From: Fidelibacterota bacterium
GTDB taxonomy: Bacteria; Fidelibacterota; Marinisomatia; Marinisomatales; TCS55
Reading direction: 5' to 3'
NCBI GenBank assembly: GCA_004124385.1
Contig: SCKN01000003.1
Span: forward strand, 169,501-233,500
DNA length: 64,000 bases
Part shown: in pieces, positions 10,571 to 24,184 of the stretch
How the letters are laid out: the number at the start of each line of letters is the position of its first letter
Position numbering within the stretch: position 1 is the stretch's first letter
Translations under genes and position numbers: made by a program
Notes under the pieces: generated by a model
What the model was told of the DNA's origin: nothing
Database searches by the model: none
The model's input: only the letters and a program-made list of their open reading frames with translations

Positions 10571-13528
10571 ATGACATTTTGCCAAATTCTTCGGGCAGTA
10601 TTGCTGCTCATATTTACGACTGTGTCCTTTGCTACAGAAGGTTATTTTCAGCAGTATGTACACTATACCATGGATGTAAAACTAGACATCAAAGAACACA
10701 CAATTGGTGGACACTCTATCATTGTATACACCAATAATTCTCCTGATGAACTTAACAATATGTATTTACATTTATTGCCAAATGCTTTTAACGAAGGAAC
10801 GGTAAAACATCGCGAATATTTGCAAAAACTTGGACGTTTGAGCCGTGCAGCAAAATTTATTTCAAGTGAAGAGGAATACTTTAGTCATGTGGACGTATCA
10901 GACTTCAGTATAAAAAAAGATGGGAAAACATTAGCTGACACATTCCAAGTGGATGATACAATTCTATCTGCTAATCTAACAAGTTCACTGCCGCCGGGCG
11001 AAACGCTTACCATAGAACTCGATTGGGTGCATCATGTGGGTAAACAATTTGAAAGAGCTGGACGAGTTGACGCACAATATAATTTTGCACAATGGTATCC
11101 AAAAATGGTGGTGTATGATGAAAATGGATGGCATAATATTCCGTTTCATGCTGAAGGAGAGTTCTATGGTGAATTTGGTACATTTGATGTAACAATGGAT
11201 GTACCCGGATGGTACACTGTGGGAGCAACAGGTGTTGTGACGGATGGCGACCCCGGTTGGGAAAGTGTCACGGTTGATACATCTCAAGATTTCAAGGAAT
11301 GGCTGGAGGAATACAAGGAAAACAAGGCTGAAATTGATTCCAATTCTCGCCGCATAGTTTCTTTCCATGCCGAACAAGTCCATGATTATGCTTGGATTAC
11401 TTCACCCACATTATTGTATGAACATGGTTCCTGGAATGGAATTGATGTTCATGTATTATTTAATGAAAAAAATGGGGAAAAATGGACCAAAAAAGTTGTG
11501 GCTCGTTCTGAACGGGCATTGGCATGGTTAAGTACAAAATTTGGTATGTATCCCTATCCCCAAGTAACCACAACAGATCGCGATAAAGGCGGCGGCATGG
11601 AATATCCCATGCTGGTCATGAACGGCAGTGAAAGTGAAGGACTTATCGTCCATGAAATTGGACATATTTGGTTTTATGGAATTATGGGTAATGATGAAAT
11701 TGATGAAGCTTGGCTCGATGAAGGATTTACAACATTTCAAACCGGGCAGTATATGATCGATCGTTACGGTCCCCATGGATTTGATTTGGAGGAATCGAAA
11801 CGATATAAACCTTTTGAGAAAAAGTACGGCAAATTCAATAAAATGCTGGATCGCTTTCAGTGGTCCACAATCCGTTTCCAAACAAGCGGTAAAGACGAGC
11901 CAATCAGTCGTAAATCCTATATGTATAATAATGGCGGTTCATATCGTTACAATGCCTATACAAAACCAGGATTAATGTTAAATGAATTAAAATATGTTTT
12001 AGGCGATTCTGTTTTTTACGCCGGAATGCAAGAATATTTTGATCGCTGGAATTTAAAACACGTAAATGAAGAACGATTTGTGACAGCTATGGAAGATGTA
12101 AGTGGGGAAAAACTAGATTGGTTTTTTAATCCGTGGTTACACAATACGAGAATCTTGGACTACGGAATCAAAAAGTGGAAGAAAGAAAAGCAAGATGATG
12201 GTACGTGGCAAGTTGATGTGGAAATAGTAAAACTTGGTAACAGGGAAATGCCCCAATTACTGGAAGTGACCATGGCAGACGGTAGCAAAGAACGCATTTG
12301 GTGGAAAAATTTTCAATGGAGGAAGGAAGATACATTTACGTTTAATGTTAATTTAGAACCGAAGTCGATTGTATTAGATCCGGATGTGCAGACAATTGAT
12401 ATTGATCGACGAAATAATTTCAGCGGACGTATGGAAAAAATAATACAATTCAATTGGATTAATACCAATTATAATCCCCGCGACAGCTATTACATTCGCT
12501 GGTTACCTTCTCTCAATTATCATGATCTGGACGGTTACACTCCCGGTATTAGTATTAATAAAAAATATGGATATTGGGAAAATCTGAACTTGGAAGTCAA
12601 TTATGCACTTGAATCACAAAACGTGTATTGGTCCTATATTGGCAATCGCAAACCAGTGCACAGCTTTAAAGGATTTTCACGATCTGTTCATGCCTTTGAT
12701 TTAGGCGGTGTGAATGGTTATGGAATGGAAATCAAAAACCATTTAAATGAAGCATTCGCTGATTTTATGACTAATTATGCGTCTATTGGATTTTATGTGA
12801 CCTATGCCAAAGATACATCCTTAACCAATTTATATGATCCCGGCCAGGTTGCAGTTATTTACAGCAATTACAGTTTTTCTGTGCAGAATAAGGTTGATGT
12901 CAATCTGGACGTTGCCACAACCCATGGGTCTGTATCTGACTGGTCATTTACGCGCTTTAATGTAACAGTTGCCTTTGATTTGAACATCAAAAAGTTTGGA
13001 CTGCGCAATCGATTGATTATGGGTCATATGATGAGTGATACAGGAGTGCCATCTCAAGAACGTTATACGATTGAAGGTGCCGGTTCAGGTGATCTCTATG
13101 CAAAACCGTTCTTGCGTGATGAATCGTCCTTTTATGGTGAAACTGACATGCGCAACCATTATCATTTACCCGGTGATGCAAATTTGAGAGGTTATTATGG
13201 AGAAGGATTAGCCGGAGCTGAATCTGTAATTGCTAATTCTTTCGAAATATTTTATAAACCATCATTCAAGCCTATGGATATTGAATTAGCTGCTTTTGTT
13301 GATGACGGCTGGGTTTGGGGCAGCAAGTTTGACCAGGGAGATGAAGGGTTTAATGGCGATTATCTTATTGATGCAGGGTTTGGATTACGATTAAGTAAAA
13401 AAATATTAGGTAAAAAATTCTATATAAGAGTGGATGTGCCTTTGTTTGTAAAAGATGTGAGTGATGCGAATGAAGGAATCCGTTTTAATACTAACAAATG
13501 GCTATTCAGTTTTTCAAAAGGGATCTAG
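10571..13528 (+). CDS. M1-family metallopeptidase with C-terminal beta-barrel-like region
   Basis: The protein has 985 residues with a signal peptide ending near SFAT. The N-terminal 600 residues resemble M1 aminopeptidases: a beta-sandwich domain, GGGMEYPMLVMNG in the position of the GxMEN exopeptidase motif, and the zinc site HEIGH (residues 361-365) with the third ligand Glu384 in WLDEGF. From about residue 620 to the end the sequence alternates polar and aromatic residues like membrane beta-strands. It contains NLRGYYGEG, like the LRG(F/Y) signature of Omp85-type barrels, and ends in KWLFSFSKGI. It could therefore be an outer-membrane peptidase with the catalytic domain facing the periplasm or the outside (inference). 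It lies 16 bp after the TlpA-like gene. Confidence 0.85.
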   Translation: MTFCQILRAVLLLIFTTVSFATEGYFQQYVHYTMDVKLDIKEHTIGGHSIIVYTNNSPDELNNMYLHLLPNAFNEGTVKHREYLQKLGRLSRAAKFISSEEEYFSHVDVSDFSIKKDGKTLADTFQVDDTILSANLTSSLPPGETLTIELDWVHHVGKQFERAGRVDAQYNFAQWYPKMVVYDENGWHNIPFHAEGEFYGEFGTFDVTMDVPGWYTVGATGVVTDGDPGWESVTVDTSQDFKEWLEEYKENKAEIDSNSRRIVSFHAEQVHDYAWITSPTLLYEHGSWNGIDVHVLFNEKNGEKWTKKVVARSERALAWLSTKFGMYPYPQVTTTDRDKGGGMEYPMLVMNGSESEGLIVHEIGHIWFYGIMGNDEIDEAWLDEGFTTFQTGQYMIDRYGPHGFDLEESKRYKPFEKKYGKFNKMLDRFQWSTIRFQTSGKDEPISRKSYMYNNGGSYRYNAYTKPGLMLNELKYVLGDSVFYAGMQEYFDRWNLKHVNEERFVTAMEDVSGEKLDWFFNPWLHNTRILDYGIKKWKKEKQDDGTWQVDVEIVKLGNREMPQLLEVTMADGSKERIWWKNFQWRKEDTFTFNVNLEPKSIVLDPDVQTIDIDRRNNFSGRMEKIIQFNWINTNYNPRDSYYIRWLPSLNYHDLDGYTPGISINKKYGYWENLNLEVNYALESQNVYWSYIGNRKPVHSFKGFSRSVHAFDLGGVNGYGMEIKNHLNEAFADFMTNYASIGFYVTYAKDTSLTNLYDPGQVAVIYSNYSFSVQNKVDVNLDVATTHGSVSDWSFTRFNVTVAFDLNIKKFGLRNRLIMGHMMSDTGVPSQERYTIEGAGSGDLYAKPFLRDESSFYGETDMRNHYHLPGDANLRGYYGEGLAGAESVIANSFEIFYKPSFKPMDIELAAFVDDGWVWGSKFDQGDEGFNGDYLIDAGFGLRLSKKILGKKFYIRVDVPLFVKDVSDANEGIRFNTNKWLFSFSKGI

Positions 13529-13842: not shown

Positions 13843-16800
13843 ATGTCTTTTGCTAAAAGATTGAGACGCTTCACACTATTGATTTTTTGTATTTCTCTCG
13901 TGACAGCTCAAAGTCGAGATGAAGTTATAGAATTAACCCATCCCGTTACGGGGTCAATGGTCGACACAAATTTTGTTGATGTTGAAGTAGCTGTCGCTGA
14001 TTATTTTACTGTCGGAAATCCAGGCTGCGCAGATTGTGATGGTTATATCCAAATTACTATGGATGGTACAGCAGTTGGTCAAATGACTTCAGATGCTGCC
14101 GTCACTGTATTTGGACTATCTGAAGGTTCTCATTTTATAGAAATTGAAGCCCTGGATCCCTCCGGGGCCAGTTTTTCTACGGTTGTTTATGATTCCGCTA
14201 CGTTTACAGTGGATATGGTCTCCGTACCCAATATTTGTCCTGCTCGGAATCTAGATGTCGTTGCTGGTGATGCTCGTAATTTTCTCTATTGGTCTGCACC
14301 TATTGCCATGTCCAATTTGAATCCCTTTCCGGCAGTTCCCCAATCAGATCCCTATCATACCGGTACAACCAATGGTTCAGCGTTCATTGAAAACAGTTTA
14401 ATAAAAGCCTGGGGCGGTCCTGCGGCTAGCAAAGAAGCAGGCTGGGCTATTTTTAACATTTCCGGCATGAATCCTAACATTGAAGTGGATACCATCATTT
14501 TCAATTATTATGTAAATGCTACTAACTGGCCCTACTGGAGCGCCACAGCAGTGGAAGTTGATCCGCTCACTGCATCAGCGGCAGATGTCCATACAGAAAT
14601 TCTTGCCGGTGCGGATGCTGCAACAGCATATTTATATCAAAACGAACCAGGGACCTTTGCCCCCGGATGGTACTCCAATGTCCTGTTGAATGGTGCCAAT
14701 GATGATCTGGAAGATGATATACCGCAGGGTTATTTCGTTATCGGTGTAGTAGATCGCGATGGTTCAACAACTTATTTTTTGGATATCGATGGCTGGAATG
14801 AAGCCAATCCGCCCAGCATTGATATTCACTGGAGTGCTCCCGGCGGCAGACAGGGTGTGTATCATGCTCCGGCCATAGCAGACATACCTTTTAGTGAAGA
14901 TGAAATCATGGCCTATAAAAATGCGGTCAGCGAAGGTTTAACGCCACCCACAGCTTTGGCAGGTATTGGTGCTTATGAAACAGAAAGTTATCCTAATGCA
15001 TCTCCACGTGAAGTCATTGAAGGCTGCGGTGATTTTCAAAACTATTCTATTTATACATTTGATGGTACAGAAGTCGCAACTTCCGATACGAATTATTATT
15101 TGCATGAGAACCTTACCAACGGAACAGAATATTGCTACAATATCGTGGCAAATTATACTGAAGGAGTTTCATTTGCCACAGCCACTGTCTGTGCGACTCC
15201 GGAAACATTTATACCCGATGGTATCACGAATCTCAATGCTGTTGGACTGGATGAAGAAATTGCCTTGTCATGGACAGACCCATCTGTACCCCAATATACA
15301 TTCTATGAGAATTTCAACAGTGGTATCCCGGCAACATGGACAGTCACAGACAATAATAGTTCTGGTATTGTTTGGGAGGCTTCGGATATTGGACCAACTG
15401 GATATAATCTGGATGATTATGATGGGCTTTTTGCTATTATAACTTCATATAGCAATACTTTTCCAAATAGTGATCTCATTTCACCCAGTATTGATTTAAG
15501 TAATTATTCATCAGCAACTTTATATTACAATTTTAATTATCAGGACTTTGCTTTGAATCCTACAGATAGCGGGTTGGTGTATATTTCAGGAGATGGCGGG
15601 TCAACATGGACACTGATGAATGCATATGGTGCTGCTGATACACCTCCAGGAGGTACTAATGCTATATTACCAGATTCAGCTTCTTTGAATAGCGTCGTTG
15701 GCAGTTCTGACGTAAAAATAAAATTTCATTATGAAGTTGTATCCGGTGAATCCTGGTTCTTTTCCGTGGATGATATTATTGTTATCGGTACGGATACGTC
15801 CGGTTCGCGGGATATGACAGGTTCTACGGTCGCCACCTTTGATACATATATCCCTGGGAATACGCATACGATGGAATTTTCATTGAATATCCAGGCACCT
15901 GATTTTGCATATAGTGACTCTGTTGCTATAACATTTCCAACGGGTGTAACCATCTTGGATGCCGGCCCGGATGAATTGGGTTTTGGTGGAGAGCCTTATG
16001 GCCCCGAACCATATAATGGCATCGATGGCCAGACCATTTCCTGGGGTACGAATGCCAATGATGGTGCGGGTGGTATATTTGGTTCTCTTACCGTATGGGC
16101 TACGTTATCCTTCGACAGTACTTTATCCGGACCGTTGTCAGCCAGCTACCATGTATCTGATGACTGGTATAATACACCGGTTGATGTTGATGGTAATTTT
16201 AATATCAATCAGCGCAACCTGACAGATGGTGACTTGTTGGGTTATAATGTATATGTTGATGGAAGTTCAACACCGCATAATGCTTCAATAATAGAGGATA
16301 ACACTTATTTAGCTGACGGTTTGACCAACGGCCAGTCATATACACTGGGTGTCACCGCTGTATATTATCCGGATTACGAAAGTTCTCAATTGGAATCAAC
16401 AGCTACTCCCACATGGCTTTATGGTGATATTACCGGAATTATTTCAGACCCAAATGGCAATTTGCTTGACAGTGCCATTGTCCGCACTGGTACCTTTATT
16501 GATACTACTGGCAGCGACGGTGTGTATCTATTAAATAATCTCGAGCCGGGTGAATATACAGTTACAGTTATGCGTTCTGATTTTGAAGGCGATGCTGAAA
16601 ATGTTACAGTTCTGGCGCAAGCAACAGCTGTCTCTCAAGATTTTGTATTAACTCCAACATTGGCTAGAGCCAATGGATTGGAAGCATCTGCAGGTGATCA
16701 TCAAATAAATCTTATTTGGAATAAACCTGGAGCCGGTGGTGCGTATGATCTTTTATATTACGATGATAATCTTGAAGCACAAATTGGCTGTGGCGGCGTA

Positions 16801-18537
16801 TGTGAGTTTGGTGTACGCTTTACACCTTTAGGTTATCCTGCAGCTTTAACGACATTACTTATCACTGTTCAGGGAGATGCTGCTGTCATTAACGGAAATA
16901 TAATCGCATTTGTTGATGATGCAGGTAGCGCTGCCGGACCGGGTGGATTAACACAGGTGACATTAGCGTCTGGAGTAGATTTTTCAGCAGTTGGTGGAGC
17001 CATTACTCAATTCGAAGTGGATGTAAGTGCTGCTGGTCTAGTTGTAAATAGTGGTGATGTCTATATTATGCTCCAGGAAAACAATTCCGGATTTATGGGT
17101 ATTGCCAATGATATTCAACCCCAAAGTCCAGAATATTACGATCGTAACTGGGTTGGACTTGGTGACGGTTTGTATATAACAATTTTTGATGCTGTTGACG
17201 GCGATCCTGCATTGACGGGAGATTTCGGAATTATGGCTACATTTGATGGTCCATCTCTGGCGACTGTTACTTTGAATAACAATAATGAAATATTGGAATA
17301 TACTCCCAATGGTTCTTATATAGGAATTTTTACAACAGAAGTGGATGCTGATTATGATTATGAAGCATTTGGTTATCAACGTTCCCCAAATCCCGAGTGT
17401 GTAGTTCGACTTACAGATTTTTGTTTTCCGGAATCACGAGCACGTTCTATGGAAGACAGCTTGATTGGCTACAATGTATATCAAGTATTAGATACGGGTG
17501 ACACGTTAGTAACAACAACAAGTGGAGCAGATGATACAACGGCAACAATTATTGTCCCGGCAAACTATGTGGAATATTGCTATAACGTTCGTGCCAGATG
17601 GAATACAGATAATTATGGTGTATTAGAAGCGAAACCAACAGATGATGCGTGCGCTGTACCGTATACTTACGGCGATGTTGATTTTAACAACAGCGTTGAC
17701 TTGAGCGACTTATTAACGGTGGTTGATTTTGTTCTTGACGTAACATCACCATCTGATGATCAATTTCGAGGTGCGGATGTAAACATGGATATGGTTATAA
17801 CAATTAATGACATTGTTATGATAGTGGACATTATTTATGGTCAAAATGCCCGCACGATGGCCTCGACAGATTCTCCTGTATTGGTCGATTTGTTAAGTTC
17901 TAATCAGCAGTTGCAGATTAAATTGGATTACGAAGGTTTAACCAGAGGACTACAGTTTACCTTGTTAGCAGATGCATTAGTAGAGATTGGAACGCCGCTA
18001 TTGTCCGTAAGTGACGGTGGGACGTTGGTTGCATCTAATCGAGCAGAAGACGGAACAGTGACAATAGTCGTTGTCAATACAGCAGGCGGATCAGTGGATC
18101 GAGCTGAAGATGTATTGGTAAGTATACCGTATACATTCAAGGGCGACCGCAGGGATAAAGCAGTGGTAGAGTTAACGGATTTTAAAGCAGCGGGAATGGC
18201 AGGAGAATCATTGCCGGTAACGATACGTGAGAAGCGAATAGATATCAGTGTTGTTCCATCGGTATTTGCCTTGCATCAGAATTATCCAAACCCGTTTAAC
18301 CCGGTAACGGAGATCCAGTTTGATGTACCGCAAGAGAGCCAAGTCCAGTTGACCATATATAATATAATGGGTCAGGAAGTAACCACCTTAAACAACAGCA
18401 CGTTGCAGGCCGGATTTCATAGTATACGCTGGGATGGAACGAATGGCTTGGGAGAGCAGGTAAGTACAGGGGTGTATTTCTACCGTTTATCCTCCCCGGC
18501 ATTTACATCCACCAAAAAAATGATTATGGTTAAATAA
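13843..18537 (+). CDS. Multidomain T9SS cargo protein with dockerin, cohesin-like and sorting domains (1564 aa)
   Basis: Signal peptide residues 1-22. In order: an Ig-like N-terminal domain; a fibronectin-III-like domain (ICPARNLDVVAGDARNFLYW) interrupted by an unrecognised insert (about 160-400); a choice-of-anchor-J/cleaved-adhesin-like domain (about 485-650: FYENFNSGIPATW, WFFSVDDIIVIG); a carboxypeptidase-regulatory-like domain (about 862-945, GITGIISDP-type start); an unnamed domain shared with the next gene (about 980-1145); a dockerin-like pair of Asp/Asn loops (about 1275-1332: DVDFNNSVDLSDLL and DVNMDMVITINDIVMIVD); a cohesin-like beta domain (1344-1466); and a T9SS type A sorting domain (about 1473-1564, YPNPFNP). 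It is expected outside the cell as an adhesin or scaffold; no catalytic site is seen. The next gene is a paralogue 24 bp downstream. Confidence 0.85.
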   Translation: MSFAKRLRRFTLLIFCISLVTAQSRDEVIELTHPVTGSMVDTNFVDVEVAVADYFTVGNPGCADCDGYIQITMDGTAVGQMTSDAAVTVFGLSEGSHFIEIEALDPSGASFSTVVYDSATFTVDMVSVPNICPARNLDVVAGDARNFLYWSAPIAMSNLNPFPAVPQSDPYHTGTTNGSAFIENSLIKAWGGPAASKEAGWAIFNISGMNPNIEVDTIIFNYYVNATNWPYWSATAVEVDPLTASAADVHTEILAGADAATAYLYQNEPGTFAPGWYSNVLLNGANDDLEDDIPQGYFVIGVVDRDGSTTYFLDIDGWNEANPPSIDIHWSAPGGRQGVYHAPAIADIPFSEDEIMAYKNAVSEGLTPPTALAGIGAYETESYPNASPREVIEGCGDFQNYSIYTFDGTEVATSDTNYYLHENLTNGTEYCYNIVANYTEGVSFATATVCATPETFIPDGITNLNAVGLDEEIALSWTDPSVPQYTFYENFNSGIPATWTVTDNNSSGIVWEASDIGPTGYNLDDYDGLFAIITSYSNTFPNSDLISPSIDLSNYSSATLYYNFNYQDFALNPTDSGLVYISGDGGSTWTLMNAYGAADTPPGGTNAILPDSASLNSVVGSSDVKIKFHYEVVSGESWFFSVDDIIVIGTDTSGSRDMTGSTVATFDTYIPGNTHTMEFSLNIQAPDFAYSDSVAITFPTGVTILDAGPDELGFGGEPYGPEPYNGIDGQTISWGTNANDGAGGIFGSLTVWATLSFDSTLSGPLSASYHVSDDWYNTPVDVDGNFNINQRNLTDGDLLGYNVYVDGSSTPHNASIIEDNTYLADGLTNGQSYTLGVTAVYYPDYESSQLESTATPTWLYGDITGIISDPNGNLLDSAIVRTGTFIDTTGSDGVYLLNNLEPGEYTVTVMRSDFEGDAENVTVLAQATAVSQDFVLTPTLARANGLEASAGDHQINLIWNKPGAGGAYDLLYYDDNLEAQIGCGGVCEFGVRFTPLGYPAALTTLLITVQGDAAVINGNIIAFVDDAGSAAGPGGLTQVTLASGVDFSAVGGAITQFEVDVSAAGLVVNSGDVYIMLQENNSGFMGIANDIQPQSPEYYDRNWVGLGDGLYITIFDAVDGDPALTGDFGIMATFDGPSLATVTLNNNNEILEYTPNGSYIGIFTTEVDADYDYEAFGYQRSPNPECVVRLTDFCFPESRARSMEDSLIGYNVYQVLDTGDTLVTTTSGADDTTATIIVPANYVEYCYNVRARWNTDNYGVLEAKPTDDACAVPYTYGDVDFNNSVDLSDLLTVVDFVLDVTSPSDDQFRGADVNMDMVITINDIVMIVDIIYGQNARTMASTDSPVLVDLLSSNQQLQIKLDYEGLTRGLQFTLLADALVEIGTPLLSVSDGGTLVASNRAEDGTVTIVVVNTAGGSVDRAEDVLVSIPYTFKGDRRDKAVVELTDFKAAGMAGESLPVTIREKRIDISVVPSVFALHQNYPNPFNPVTEIQFDVPQESQVQLTIYNIMGQEVTTLNNSTLQAGFHSIRWDGTNGLGEQVSTGVYFYRLSSPAFTSTKKMIMVK
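17841..18537 (+). repeat. 697-bp near-identical 3' cassette, copy 1
   Basis: This copy aligns without gaps to 21975-22671 at a fixed offset of 4134 bp, with 10 mismatches counted by eye (about 98.6% identity). It encodes the cohesin-like domain and the T9SS sorting domain. Sequence directly upstream, including the dockerin codons, is clearly diverged between the genes, so the boundary is sharp. The match ends essentially at the stop codon. Confidence 0.95.
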
Positions 18538-18561
18538 CAGAGATTTAAACAGGAGTATTCC

Positions 18562-21500
18562 ATGCGATGGAAATCACTAAAAATTATTTTAATGAACTTA
18601 ACCTTGAGCGGAGCATTATGGGCTCAGGCAGAGGTCATCAACATTACATCTCCGGCATCCGGAGCTATCATTGATACTAATTTTGTTAGAGTGTCATTTG
18701 ATGTTGCAACCTATTTTTCTGTTGGAGATTCAGGGTGTGCAGATTGTGATGGTTTTTTAAAGTCATTTTTAAATGATAACCATGTACAAAGTTCATTTAC
18801 AACAAATGATATTGCACTTGTGGACTTAATTGATGGTAATTATACTTTTAGATTAGAAGCAGTAGATCCCTATGGTTATAGTTTTGATCCTGCTATTGAA
18901 GATACTGTTTCATTTTCTGTCATAGGCAATCCTTCTTTATGTGCTCCCTCTGATTTGATGGTTTACGAGGGTGATAGCCGTAACACTCTTGAGTGGAGTG
19001 AACCGGTAGCAGGAGGCTCTGGCGGAATTGGCTGTGGCGACTATCTGATCACAGCTCTGCCGTTCAGTGATCAAAATACAAATGTAGGTATGGTTGATGA
19101 CTGGGACGTGACCGCCAGCGATGGTGAAGATGTTGCCTATACCTTGAATCTTTCTAGTGAAACAACCATTGATATTACCGTTTGTTTTGGGTATACGAGC
19201 TACGATACGAAACTGGAAATTTTTACATTTGATGGAACGGACTGCAGTTTAACGTACACTGATGCTGTGACGACGGGTAATTATAATGATGATTTCACAT
19301 GTGCTTTTAATGGCTTATACTCTTCGTTGTTGAATGTAACATTGGCTGCAGGCCAATATTATATTGTCGTAGATGGCTATGCTGGCTCAACCGGGAATTA
19401 TGAATTAAGCATAGTTGAATCCACTGGTCGTACCGTTGCACATGACACTCAAGCTGATTTCGATCTGGAATTGCTCAAATCAGGTTTGAACCCTGATGAT
19501 CTATTTGCGGATTTTCAAGAATTACAGAATGCAAGGAATGATTCAAGAGAAATCGATATCCTTTGCGGGACATTTGTTCAGTATAACATTTATAATTCAG
19601 CTGATAGTTCTCTGGTGGGATCTGCGGATACTACCTATTACCTCCATGAAAATTTGACCAATGATACGGAATACTGTTATTATGTTAGAGCTGAATATGC
19701 TGAAGGTGAATCTGCAAATTCAGATACAGCCTGCGCGACACCGGCAGCTTTCATTGCAACACCGATCACGAATCTCATGGCCACACCTTTAGATGAAGAA
19801 GTAGCCCTGTCCTGGACAGAACCGTCCACATCCACCTATGTGGTGTTTACAAGCTTTGAAGGATCCGATGGCGGTTTTACCGGAAGTGGTGGTTTTGAAA
19901 GAGGCGTCCCAACTGTAGGGCCGAGTGCAGCCGGCAGCGGCGCCGAATGCTGGGCCACCAACCTAAATGCTAATTACGATAACATGATGTTTGCAACTTT
20001 AACGTCACCTGCTTATAATTTGACGGGTATGACCAACCCCATGATGCAGATTAACCACTGGTATAATATTGAATTAAATTGGGATGGCGGAAATGTCAAA
20101 ATATCTGATGACAATGGTTCCACCTGGACCATTTTAACTCCTACCGTTGCTTATCCCGCAGCTGCTGTTTCTACTGCGAATGTAGGCATTCCCGGTGAAC
20201 CGGCCTATTCTGGGACTAATAGCAGCAATTTCTGGCATAATGTCCAGTTTGACCTGAGTAGTTATGATTCATCAACAGTTATGTTTCGCTTTGATTTTGG
20301 CACTGATGGTTCAGTAACATATGAAGGCTGGTATATTGATGATTTTGCTCTGTTGGAAAATTCAACCGGTCGTGAAAATGACGGTGATTTAACACATTAT
20401 AATGTGTACCAAGATGGTGTTTTAGTTCAAGATTCTGTAGAAGTTACAGGTTATGTTGTAACAGATTTAACTAACGCAACTACTTATACGTTTAGCGTTT
20501 CTGCCGGGTATTATCCCAATTATGAAAGTGATACTGTAAGTGTTTCATCAACACCTACATGGATGTATGGTGATGTTTCGGGTGTTATTACAGATCCTGC
20601 CGGTGCATTGCTTGACAGTGCAATTGTTTATACTGGCAGTGTCAAAGATACAACCGGAAGTGATGGAACTTATTTTCTCGGTGACCTTGAACCTGGGGTA
20701 CACAATGTAAGAGTAACCCGCGATGGTTTTGATTGGTCAGAAGCAAATGTAACTATTATTGCCCAGGAAACTGCCGTAACCCAAGATTTTGAAATGATTC
20801 CGGTTGTGGGTGTTCCTTGGGGCTTAACAGCTGATGGCAGTGATCACGCAGTCAACTTGGCTTGGAGAACTCCAGGAGGACAAGCACCATATGACATTTC
20901 GTATTATGATGCAGATTTAGAAGGCCAAATAGGCTGCGGAGGCGATTGTGAGTTCGGTGTACGTTTTACACCTTTGGGCTATCCTGCTACATTAACGAGT
21001 ATTATGGTGAGTGTCCAAGGTGACGCAGGTGCAGTATCCGCTAATATTATAGCATTTCTTGAACCCAATGGAGATTTAAGCGGCCCCGATGGACTGACGC
21101 CCATTACACTGGCTAGTGGAGTGGATCTGTCAGCTGTTGATTTTAATTTAACCCAATATGAAGTGGATGTAAGCGAAGCCAATATAGAAGTCACCAGTGG
21201 TGATATATATATCATGATTCAGGAAAACAATTCAGGATTTATGGGCATAGCTAATGATATTGCACCGCAGTCCCCGGAATATTATGATCGCAACTGGGTA
21301 CTGGTTGGTGGAGTATATTCAACCATATTTGATGCTGTTGGCGGTTCTCCAGATCTGACTGGTGATTTTGGTTTGCAAGCGACATTCTTTGGCGTAATGG
21401 GACGTTCAACATTGAACAGTGCTAATGAAGTCGTGCAGGGAGCGAGTGCTCCAGTGCAGCCGGTCAGGGAAGGTGCATTTGCCAATGTTTCATCTGGACC

Positions 21501-22671
21501 TCATATTTACAAAGAACATATTATTGCTGATCAGGTATTGCCGTTCTTGAATGTCGCAAGTGCCAGCAGTCAGCAAAATAGCCGCAGCGTAAGTCTGACT
21601 GGATTTAACGTATATGAAGTATTGAGCAGTGGCGATACGCTTGTGGCAACAGGCCCTGAAACTGATACGACTGATATTATATCTGTACCCAGCAATTATA
21701 CTGAATATTGTTATGCAGTTTCTGCAGTGTGGGATCATTCTGAATATGGTGCCATTGAGTCTAAAAAATCTGGTATTGCCTGTGCCACTCCCTATTTGCC
21801 CGGTGATATAGATTTTAATGATGATGTGGATATTTCTGATCTTTTAGCATGCGTTGATTTTATCCTTGAAGTGGATATTCCCACGGAATCAGAGTTCCGT
21901 AATGCGGACGTGAATATGGATATGGAAATCAATATTGCTGATGTAGTCATGATTGTTGATATTATCACCGGCGGTCAAAATGCCCGCATGATGGCCTCGA
22001 CAGATTCTCCTGTATTGGTCGATTTGTTAAGTTCTAATCAGCAGTTGCAGATTAAATTGGATTACGAAGGTTTAACCAGAGGACTACAGTTTACCTTGTT
22101 AGCAGATGCATTAGTAGAGATTGGAACGCCGCTATTGTCCGTAAGTGACGGTGGGACGTTGGTTGCATCTAATCGAGCAGAAGACGGAACAGTGACAATA
22201 GTCGTTGTCAATACAGCAGGCGGATCAGTGGATCGAGTTGAAGATGTATTGGTAAGTATACCGTATACATTCAAGGGCGACCGCAGGGATAAAGCAGTGG
22301 TAGAGTTAACGGATTTTAAAGCAGCGGGAATGGCAGGAGAATCATTGCCGGTAACGATACGTGAGAAGCGAATAGATATCAGTGTTGTTCCATCGGTATT
22401 TGCCTTACATCAGAATTATCCTAATCCGTTTAACCCGGTAACAGAGATCCAGTTTGATGTACCGCAAGAGAGCCAAGTCCAGTTGACCATATATAATATA
22501 ATGGGTCAGGAAGTAACCACCTTAAACAACAGCACGTTGCAGGCAGGTTTTCATAGTATACGATGGGATGGGACGAATGGCTTGGGAGAGCAGGTAAGTA
22601 CAGGGGTGTATTTCTACCGTTTATCCTCCCCGGCATTTACATCCACCAAAAAAATGATTATGGTTAAATAA
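18562..22671 (+). CDS. Second multidomain T9SS cargo protein, paralogue of the upstream gene (1369 aa)
   Basis: A signal peptide ends at LWAQ. In order: an Ig-like N-terminal domain matching its neighbour (VFN-like CADCDGF shared); a fibronectin-III-like domain that carries a bacterial pre-peptidase C-terminal (PPC) type insert (about 160-290: DDWDVTASDGEDVAYTLNL, AGQYYIVVDGYAG); an adhesin/choice-of-anchor-J-like domain (about 428-605, ending GWYIDDFALLE); a carboxypeptidase-regulatory-like domain (about 670-755); the shared unnamed domain (about 790-955); a dockerin-like region (about 1081-1138: DIDFNDDVDISDLL, DVNMDMEINIADVV); a cohesin-like domain (1150-1272); and a T9SS sorting domain (about 1279-1369). 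Same domain plan as the first gene with one module swapped. An AGGAG lies 7 bases before the ATG. The pair is probably one transcript ending at the hairpin 22695-22724. Confidence 0.85.
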   Translation: MRWKSLKIILMNLTLSGALWAQAEVINITSPASGAIIDTNFVRVSFDVATYFSVGDSGCADCDGFLKSFLNDNHVQSSFTTNDIALVDLIDGNYTFRLEAVDPYGYSFDPAIEDTVSFSVIGNPSLCAPSDLMVYEGDSRNTLEWSEPVAGGSGGIGCGDYLITALPFSDQNTNVGMVDDWDVTASDGEDVAYTLNLSSETTIDITVCFGYTSYDTKLEIFTFDGTDCSLTYTDAVTTGNYNDDFTCAFNGLYSSLLNVTLAAGQYYIVVDGYAGSTGNYELSIVESTGRTVAHDTQADFDLELLKSGLNPDDLFADFQELQNARNDSREIDILCGTFVQYNIYNSADSSLVGSADTTYYLHENLTNDTEYCYYVRAEYAEGESANSDTACATPAAFIATPITNLMATPLDEEVALSWTEPSTSTYVVFTSFEGSDGGFTGSGGFERGVPTVGPSAAGSGAECWATNLNANYDNMMFATLTSPAYNLTGMTNPMMQINHWYNIELNWDGGNVKISDDNGSTWTILTPTVAYPAAAVSTANVGIPGEPAYSGTNSSNFWHNVQFDLSSYDSSTVMFRFDFGTDGSVTYEGWYIDDFALLENSTGRENDGDLTHYNVYQDGVLVQDSVEVTGYVVTDLTNATTYTFSVSAGYYPNYESDTVSVSSTPTWMYGDVSGVITDPAGALLDSAIVYTGSVKDTTGSDGTYFLGDLEPGVHNVRVTRDGFDWSEANVTIIAQETAVTQDFEMIPVVGVPWGLTADGSDHAVNLAWRTPGGQAPYDISYYDADLEGQIGCGGDCEFGVRFTPLGYPATLTSIMVSVQGDAGAVSANIIAFLEPNGDLSGPDGLTPITLASGVDLSAVDFNLTQYEVDVSEANIEVTSGDIYIMIQENNSGFMGIANDIAPQSPEYYDRNWVLVGGVYSTIFDAVGGSPDLTGDFGLQATFFGVMGRSTLNSANEVVQGASAPVQPVREGAFANVSSGPHIYKEHIIADQVLPFLNVASASSQQNSRSVSLTGFNVYEVLSSGDTLVATGPETDTTDIISVPSNYTEYCYAVSAVWDHSEYGAIESKKSGIACATPYLPGDIDFNDDVDISDLLACVDFILEVDIPTESEFRNADVNMDMEINIADVVMIVDIITGGQNARMMASTDSPVLVDLLSSNQQLQIKLDYEGLTRGLQFTLLADALVEIGTPLLSVSDGGTLVASNRAEDGTVTIVVVNTAGGSVDRVEDVLVSIPYTFKGDRRDKAVVELTDFKAAGMAGESLPVTIREKRIDISVVPSVFALHQNYPNPFNPVTEIQFDVPQESQVQLTIYNIMGQEVTTLNNSTLQAGFHSIRWDGTNGLGEQVSTGVYFYRLSSPAFTSTKKMIMVK
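21975..22671 (+). repeat. 697-bp near-identical 3' cassette, copy 2
   Basis: This is the partner of 17841-18537. The first 430 bp hold only two differences, both changing an amino acid (Thr to Met and Ala to Val). The last 265 bp, which is the sorting domain, hold eight differences, all synonymous. This uneven pattern points to gene conversion or different ages of the two halves. Confidence 0.95.
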
Positions 22672-22801: not shown

Positions 22802-24184
22802 TTGAAACGAAATTTAATTATTTTCATTCTCATAGTTTCGTGCGGTTGGGCACAAAATTCCATTGCCAGACAGTTCAGTAATGCATTCGCTGATGTAGCT
22901 GAAAAAGTTAATCCGTCCGTCGTAACAATTTTAGCGAAAAAAGAAATAAAAGTGGATCGCTACCATCGCAACAATCCATATAATAACTTATTTCCTCAAA
23001 AATTCTTTGATCAGGAATTGTATACCCGAGCACTGGGATCCGGTGTCATAGTTGATAGTCAAGAAGGATATATTCTTACCAATAACCATGTAGTTGAAAA
23101 TATGGACGAAATTACCGTTAGGCTTATCGATAAACGGGAATACGAAGCGGTTATTGTTGGTAATGACCCCAGATCAGATTTGGCTATAATCCGGATTGAA
23201 GCACATGAATTGACGGCAGTTGATTTTGGAGATTCTGACAAGCTGCGTGTTGGCGAGTGGGTGTTAGCAATCGGGAGCCCCTTTAGTGATAATTTGAGTC
23301 ATACTGTCACGGCCGGTATCATCAGCGCATTGGGCCGCAGTAGTATTATATCCAATGATAATTATGAAGATTTTATTCAGACTGATACTGCAATCAATCC
23401 CGGTAACAGTGGTGGAGCACTGGTGAATTTGGATGGTGCTTTAATTGGTATAAATACAGCTATTGCCACGGGTGGATTACAGAGATCCAGTAGTGGCGTG
23501 GGATTTGCAATTCCGGTGAACATGGCCAAAAAAGTGATGGATGACCTTATCAATGAAGGACGTGTTATTCGCGCATGGTTGGGTGTGTATATTCAGGATT
23601 TGGATGATGGCGCCGCACGTGCGTTGGGGTTGGATACCAGGGATGGAGCACTCATTGGCGATGTGGTAAAAAACAGTCCAGCTGAAAAGGGTGGAATTGA
23701 AATCGGGGATATTATTACAACATTTGATGGGCAGGGAATTTCCGGATCGTCCAATCTGAAAAACATTGTATCCAGTTCTAAACCGGATAAACGCTATACT
23801 GTTGAATTATTGCGTGATGGTAAAAAGAAAAAATATTTTATTACCCTTGAAGAATTACCGGAAAATCCCCGTACGTTGGCTCGTGTGGAGTCAGACATTG
23901 AAAGTGAATTGGGTTTTCGCATTGAAAATGTTACAATCCAGTTATTGCGAAAATATGAAATTTATGATAATGTTGAAGGTGTAGTTGTTACGGACATTGA
24001 TCGAAGAAGTGAAGCGTTTACTGCTGGTTTGCGTCCGGGAGATGTTATTACAAGAGTCGGCCGCCGTAATGTGAACTCAATTAAGAATTTCTATGAACTT
24101 CTCGATACAGAATCCCGAGGAAACACTGTTTTATTGCTCGTAAAACGAAAAGATGTATCGCGGTTTTTAACTCTGGAGATGTAA
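22802..24184 (+). CDS. HtrA/Deg family periplasmic serine protease
   Basis: A DegP/DegQ-type protease and chaperone that degrades misfolded envelope proteins. The 460-residue product has a signal peptide ending GWAQ, a trypsin-like domain with catalytic His96 (TNNHVVEN), Asp126 (RSDLAIIR) and Ser203 (NPGNSGGA), and two PDZ domains (about 260-350 and 370-460, the first with RAWLGVYIQDL). The start is TTG at 22802, supported by TAGGAG 8 bases upstream. Two direct copies of AAGAATTCAA lie just before it. Placement after the surface cargo genes fits envelope quality control, but the terminator between them suggests separate transcription. Confidence 0.94.
   Translation: MKRNLIIFILIVSCGWAQNSIARQFSNAFADVAEKVNPSVVTILAKKEIKVDRYHRNNPYNNLFPQKFFDQELYTRALGSGVIVDSQEGYILTNNHVVENMDEITVRLIDKREYEAVIVGNDPRSDLAIIRIEAHELTAVDFGDSDKLRVGEWVLAIGSPFSDNLSHTVTAGIISALGRSSIISNDNYEDFIQTDTAINPGNSGGALVNLDGALIGINTAIATGGLQRSSSGVGFAIPVNMAKKVMDDLINEGRVIRAWLGVYIQDLDDGAARALGLDTRDGALIGDVVKNSPAEKGGIEIGDIITTFDGQGISGSSNLKNIVSSSKPDKRYTVELLRDGKKKKYFITLEELPENPRTLARVESDIESELGFRIENVTIQLLRKYEIYDNVEGVVVTDIDRRSEAFTAGLRPGDVITRVGRRNVNSIKNFYELLDTESRGNTVLLLVKRKDVSRFLTLEM

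Follow-up and report, generated by a model that had tools for sequence, protein, structure and literature searches.

Organization of the locus

The window, i.e. the whole 64 kb stretch of DNA that was analysed, lies within a 330 kb contig of the present genome (G000), a 2.09 Mb assembly of 11 contigs that is MAG-type in appearance. Two large genes are arranged head to tail on the forward strand, separated by a spacer of 24 bp. Gene A (13843..18537, +) encodes a T9SS-type cargo protein of 1564 aa, as judged from its open reading frame and its Pfam/NCBIfam matches, in which a signal-like N-terminus, a CarboxypepD_reg module, a dockerin-like repeat, a cohesin-like domain and a FlgD-Ig/Por_Secre_tail region follow one another from the N- to the C-terminus. 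Gene B (18562..22671, +; 1369 aa; open reading frame and Pfam) is its tandem paralogue, with an N-terminal half unlike that of gene A, composed of an InhA-like MAM module and fn3 (Pfam). The conserved neighbours of the pair, an M1-like metallopeptidase gene upstream (10571..13528, +) and an HtrA/Deg-type protease gene downstream (22802..24184, +), were used as synteny anchors; in the sister genera, an orthologous single gene is found between the M1 peptidase and HtrA genes.

A near-identical block at the 3' ends of both genes

The 3' ends of genes A and B consist of a shared block of 699 bp (232 codons plus the stop codon; 17839..18537, + in gene A, and 21973..22671, + in gene B), identical at 689 of its 699 positions, gap-free and ending at both stop codons. 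The original prediction had reported 687 identities over 697 bp without gaps, a count that was exact for 17841-18537 against 21975-22671 (offset 4134), although the repeat search and the sequence itself place the beginning of the identity two bases further 5' (17839/21973). The strong divergence that it had described for the upstream coding regions was also recovered, with similarity at background directly 5' of the block (58.9% nucleotide identity in the dockerin segment), and the same was observed directly after the stop codon.

When the window was searched with 20-base seeds, the block was the sole repeat of at least 60 bp, and no comparable pair occurs elsewhere in the genome. The genome-wide search for further copies, a check proposed together with the original prediction, yielded no third copy; the next match reached 61% amino acid identity over 94 residues and comprised the sorting tail alone, while the cohesin-like part had no other match in the genome beyond genes A and B. 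A mobile sorting/cohesin cassette circulating among many T9SS cargo genes would be in line with the approximately 75 genes of this genome that carry related tails, but none of those tails is close to the block and the cohesin-like part is confined to the pair. Moreover, no inverted repeats were detected (none of at least 60 bp in the window, none of at least 40 bp around the pair), and the edges of the block coincide with a domain boundary on the 5' side and with the stop codons on the 3' side, making such a cassette very improbable. The wider exchange of a cassette between diverging modules, which had been put forward as a second option, likewise found no backing among the T9SS-tail genes, and in the relatives the locus was inherited in place.

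Domains encoded by the block and by the adjoining repeat

The block encodes one cohesin-fold domain and a type A T9SS sorting tail. The tail (18273..18537, +) matched TIGR04183 with 41.9 and 42.5 bits in the two proteins (cut-off 23), and PF18962 was also matched above its cut-off of 27. A T9SS translocon gene was detected in the same genome (SprA_N, PF14349, 143 bits against a cut-off of 27; controls 0/14), and from the sorting domain together with this gene both proteins are predicted to be T9SS type A cargo. The first part of the block (17839..18272, +), assigned as a cohesin-like beta domain from an AlphaFold2 model and Foldseek, had no Pfam match. The model was built from a 13-sequence alignment (mean pLDDT 82.5), and its best single-domain Foldseek matches were cohesin modules (2jh2_C, TMt 0.72; 2xdh, TMt 0.62; 4dh2_A, TMt 0.58). 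Because the cohesin profile PF00963 was unmatched in A and B, even though other genes of the same genome match it, we call the domain cohesin-like and not cohesin; with this wording, the earlier description of a cohesin-like/sorting cassette agrees with the modelled fold and with the tail profiles.

A dockerin-like double repeat lies directly upstream of the block, outside the homogenised DNA, being of A-type in gene A (17647..17838, +) and of B-type, with one extra codon, in gene B (21778..21972, +). Two D-x-[DN]-like repeats were apparent in the alignment of this segment, whose matches to PF00404 (Dockerin type I) did not exceed the cut-off of 22.9 (A, weakly matched with 16.1 bits; B, 22.2 bits, E=1.6e-4). 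Elsewhere in the genome, a frame of 1128 aa was noticed (G000:C10:20380-22890; L124-L126) in which three cohesin domains exceed the Pfam cut-off; its product is a candidate partner of both dockerin-like repeats.

Grouping by gene outside the block and by genome inside it

The comparison included congeneric Marinimicrobia MAGs, in which gene A was available from G001 and G003 and gene B from G005; complete copies of both genes were present in G000 alone. As far as the contigs extended, the A or B genes of these genomes had the same neighbours. In G005, gene A was mostly absent from the assembly, with its N-terminus on another contig, and the end of an A tail was found directly before gene B, which occupied the same position before HtrA as in G000.

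In the codon alignment, quartet sites grouping the two genes within the genome were few compared with those grouping orthologues in the N-terminus (6/92) and in the dockerin segment (3/29), whereas the proportions were reversed in the cohesin-like part (38/1) and in the tail (13/1), giving 51 sites for A=B within the genome and 2 for orthologues over the whole block. Maximum-likelihood trees agreed, since the gene B sequences of G000 and G005 grouped together outside the block (support of 100 in the N-terminus and 97-99 in the dockerin), while inside the block genes A and B of G000 grouped together with a support of 99-100. Third-position identity within G000 was 99% in the cohesin part and 92% in the tail, whereas comparison with the copies of other species gave 47-71%. 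A GENECONV-style run test on the two G000 genes, of the type recommended with the original prediction, found 97 consecutive agreeing polymorphic sites, whereas none of 2000 permutations exceeded 14; the identity of the block is far beyond chance.

If the whole gene had recently been duplicated in tandem and one copy had then received a new N-terminal part, identical 3' ends under differing 5' parts would likewise result, but the trees of the N-terminus and of the dockerin contradict this scenario, and it is very unlikely. The G005 gene B shares the N-terminus, the dockerin type and the position before HtrA with its G000 counterpart, which indicates that the pair predates the species split. In addition, the single genes of a sister genus joined the N-terminus tree between the three A and the two B sequences, which places the duplication before the separation of these species.

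An assembly artefact, in which the assembler copied one 3' end onto both genes or strains were mixed, was considered as well, given that the genome is apparently MAG-type and that similar repeats seem to break the assemblies of its relatives. A copy-paste error would, however, yield identical copies, whereas 10 differences, of which eight are synonymous, separate these two; the contig extends over 330 kb with conserved synteny on both sides, and the A tail preceding gene B in G005 reveals that the tandem arrangement exists independently. On these grounds an artefact is very unlikely.

Uneven mismatches point to tracts of different age

The mismatches are unevenly distributed along the block, as originally described. 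Numbered from 17841, those at 15 and 264 are non-synonymous (T/M and A/V), and those at 433, 448, 451, 469, 571, 574, 589 and 598 are all synonymous, so that the split into two amino acid changes in the first part and eight silent ones in the last part held. The synonymous differences in the tail run from 18273 to 18438, and the final 99 bp are identical. Synonymous changes affected 0 of ~107 sites in the first 432 bp and 8 of ~54 sites in the rest (Fisher p=1.1e-4). The simplest reading is that of two conversion tracts of different age, the older corresponding to the sorting tail and the younger to the cohesin-like part; because the density of synonymous change differs within the block, at least two conversion events are implied. 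The lack of amino acid changes in the tail fits purifying selection.

Selection was also entertained for the two non-synonymous differences, and rejected. Both are derived C-to-T changes private to gene B, and they are unremarkable because three quarters of the sites are non-synonymous: two random changes would both be of this kind ~56% of the time. The purely non-synonymous character of the first part, which had been presented as part of the signal, carries no message.

Signs of recurrence in related genomes

Among the relatives, all of which are MAGs, the indications of recurrence come from mosaic sequence and contig breaks. Gene A of G001 (L064:6410-10876) is a mosaic, A-type to alignment column ~895, B-type to ~1345 and, in the dockerin, largely A-type again over its second half. 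In this gene and in the G005 gene B, a 'DLTGEWTLFYDWGCSGSPG' module replaces the 'IGCGG..CEFGVRFTPLGYPA' module of G000; the B-type stretch and the sharing of the whole replaced module suggest that earlier conversion in that lineage extended further upstream. G001 and G005 are sisters according to their HtrA genes (86.6% identity), for which reason the lack of gene B in G001 is attributed to loss or assembly collapse. A single crossover between the same repeats could delete gene B, would be a natural route for its loss, and may explain the single gene of G001.

Contigs ended exactly at the stop codon in G003, 26 codons before the stop of gene A in G005, at the 5' edge of the block in G007, in the tail in G008 and G009, and 5 bp past the stop in G011; other breaks fell inside gene A, in G002 and in contig 131 of G005. 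A rough estimate from the number of contigs and the size of the genome is that ~3-10% of such genomes should have a contig end within any given 700 bp. The breaks at the block therefore form a strong pattern, albeit one recognised post hoc, and they are what an unresolved repeat would produce.

In G011, which belongs to a sister genus (g2), two gene-end copies on contigs 56 and 115 (L133 and L116) were 87.8% identical over 1.28 kb and ~74% identical to those of other species. These possibly represent another converted pair, or two strains, in an assembly with ~4% contamination in which both contigs are cut; this genus was accordingly set aside as proof of recurrence and is treated as suggestive. 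Persistence of the homogenisation is likely inside one genus and is suggested in a second.

Probable segmental gene conversion and its relation to known systems

Two features of the block were directly observed, the switch from orthologous to within-genome grouping at its 5' edge and the two levels of synonymous divergence inside it, and both agree with the repeated gene conversion that had been proposed from the sequence. We consider it most probable (about 0.9) that a tandem duplication before the species split was followed by ectopic gene conversion of the 3' block, a segmental form of concerted evolution. The duplication would have produced genes A and B before the species of this Marinimicrobia genus separated, both being retained, and homologous recombination between the direct copies, presumably RecA-type and non-reciprocal, would have overwritten one 3' end more than once. 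Homogenisation would in this way have affected the cohesin-like domain together with the sorting tail, while divergence continued in the dockerin-like repeat and the N-terminal modules. The copied part may be interchangeable since both proteins would need the same secretion/anchoring tail and cohesin-type contact, and the divergence accumulated outside the block probably now limits the tracts to it. A broader proposal appears doubtful, although conceivable: that the locus is permanently subject to homogenisation in two or more genera of Marinimicrobia. The two products would then build a surface assembly in which conversion keeps the common connector identical, since the cohesin-like contact surface and the sorting tail would have to match while the dockerin and N-terminal modules specialise.

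The locus is a new and well-supported example of gene conversion, a process already known. As summarised in PMC2795765, citing Pride and Blaser 2002, the 3' segments of Helicobacter pylori homA/homB and babA/babB group by strain, a concerted evolution attributed to gene conversion, and the 5' segments group by gene. The likeness lies in paralogous surface-protein genes whose 3' part follows the genome while the 5' part diverges; the H. pylori genes, as described there, encode outer-membrane proteins and display the pattern within one species, whereas genes A and B are adjacent tandem genes for T9SS cargo in an uncultured marine lineage, were compared between species, and share a block limited to the cohesin-like domain and the sorting tail. 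The adhesin regions of rgpA/kgp/hagA in Porphyromonas gingivalis (PMC5266723) are also T9SS cargo with identical repeats that break short-read assemblies and with modular domain exchange, but in that pathogen it is adhesin modules of separate genes that are shared, whereas genes A and B are neighbours with a common 3' end, and the homogenised block includes the sorting tail as well. Long-lasting concerted evolution of prokaryotic paralogues, with copies within a genome recurrently more alike than orthologues, has been documented for genes of important pathways and complexes (PMC6053082), in contrast to the segment of a surface gene described here. In the literature consulted, we found no earlier report of such gene conversion in Marinimicrobia, and nothing useful on T9SS cargo or dockerins in this group. 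The locus offers a clean between-species example, from an uncultured ocean lineage, of concerted evolution limited to the connector/export end of secreted surface proteins. It is also a caution for the use of short-read MAGs, in which genes of this type may be fragmented or absent in a systematic way, given that congeneric and sister-genus assemblies end at this block.

Additional variation at the locus

In the region between genes A and B of G005 (L066:8101-8355), the spacer was much longer than in G000 (roughly 175 bp against 24 bp) and held degenerate gene-end repeats (AAAATGATTATGGTAAAATAA) with the inverted repeats CAGGACG..CGTCCTG. Within gene A, the G000 and G003 (L065) sequences were 93-96% identical at alignment columns 151-850 (window positions ~14280-16300; 87-93% at third positions) and 76-86% identical in the remaining parts upstream of the block, while the neighbouring M1 genes of the two genomes were 81% identical (65% at third positions). 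The variable middle of gene A was likely exchanged between species by recombination.
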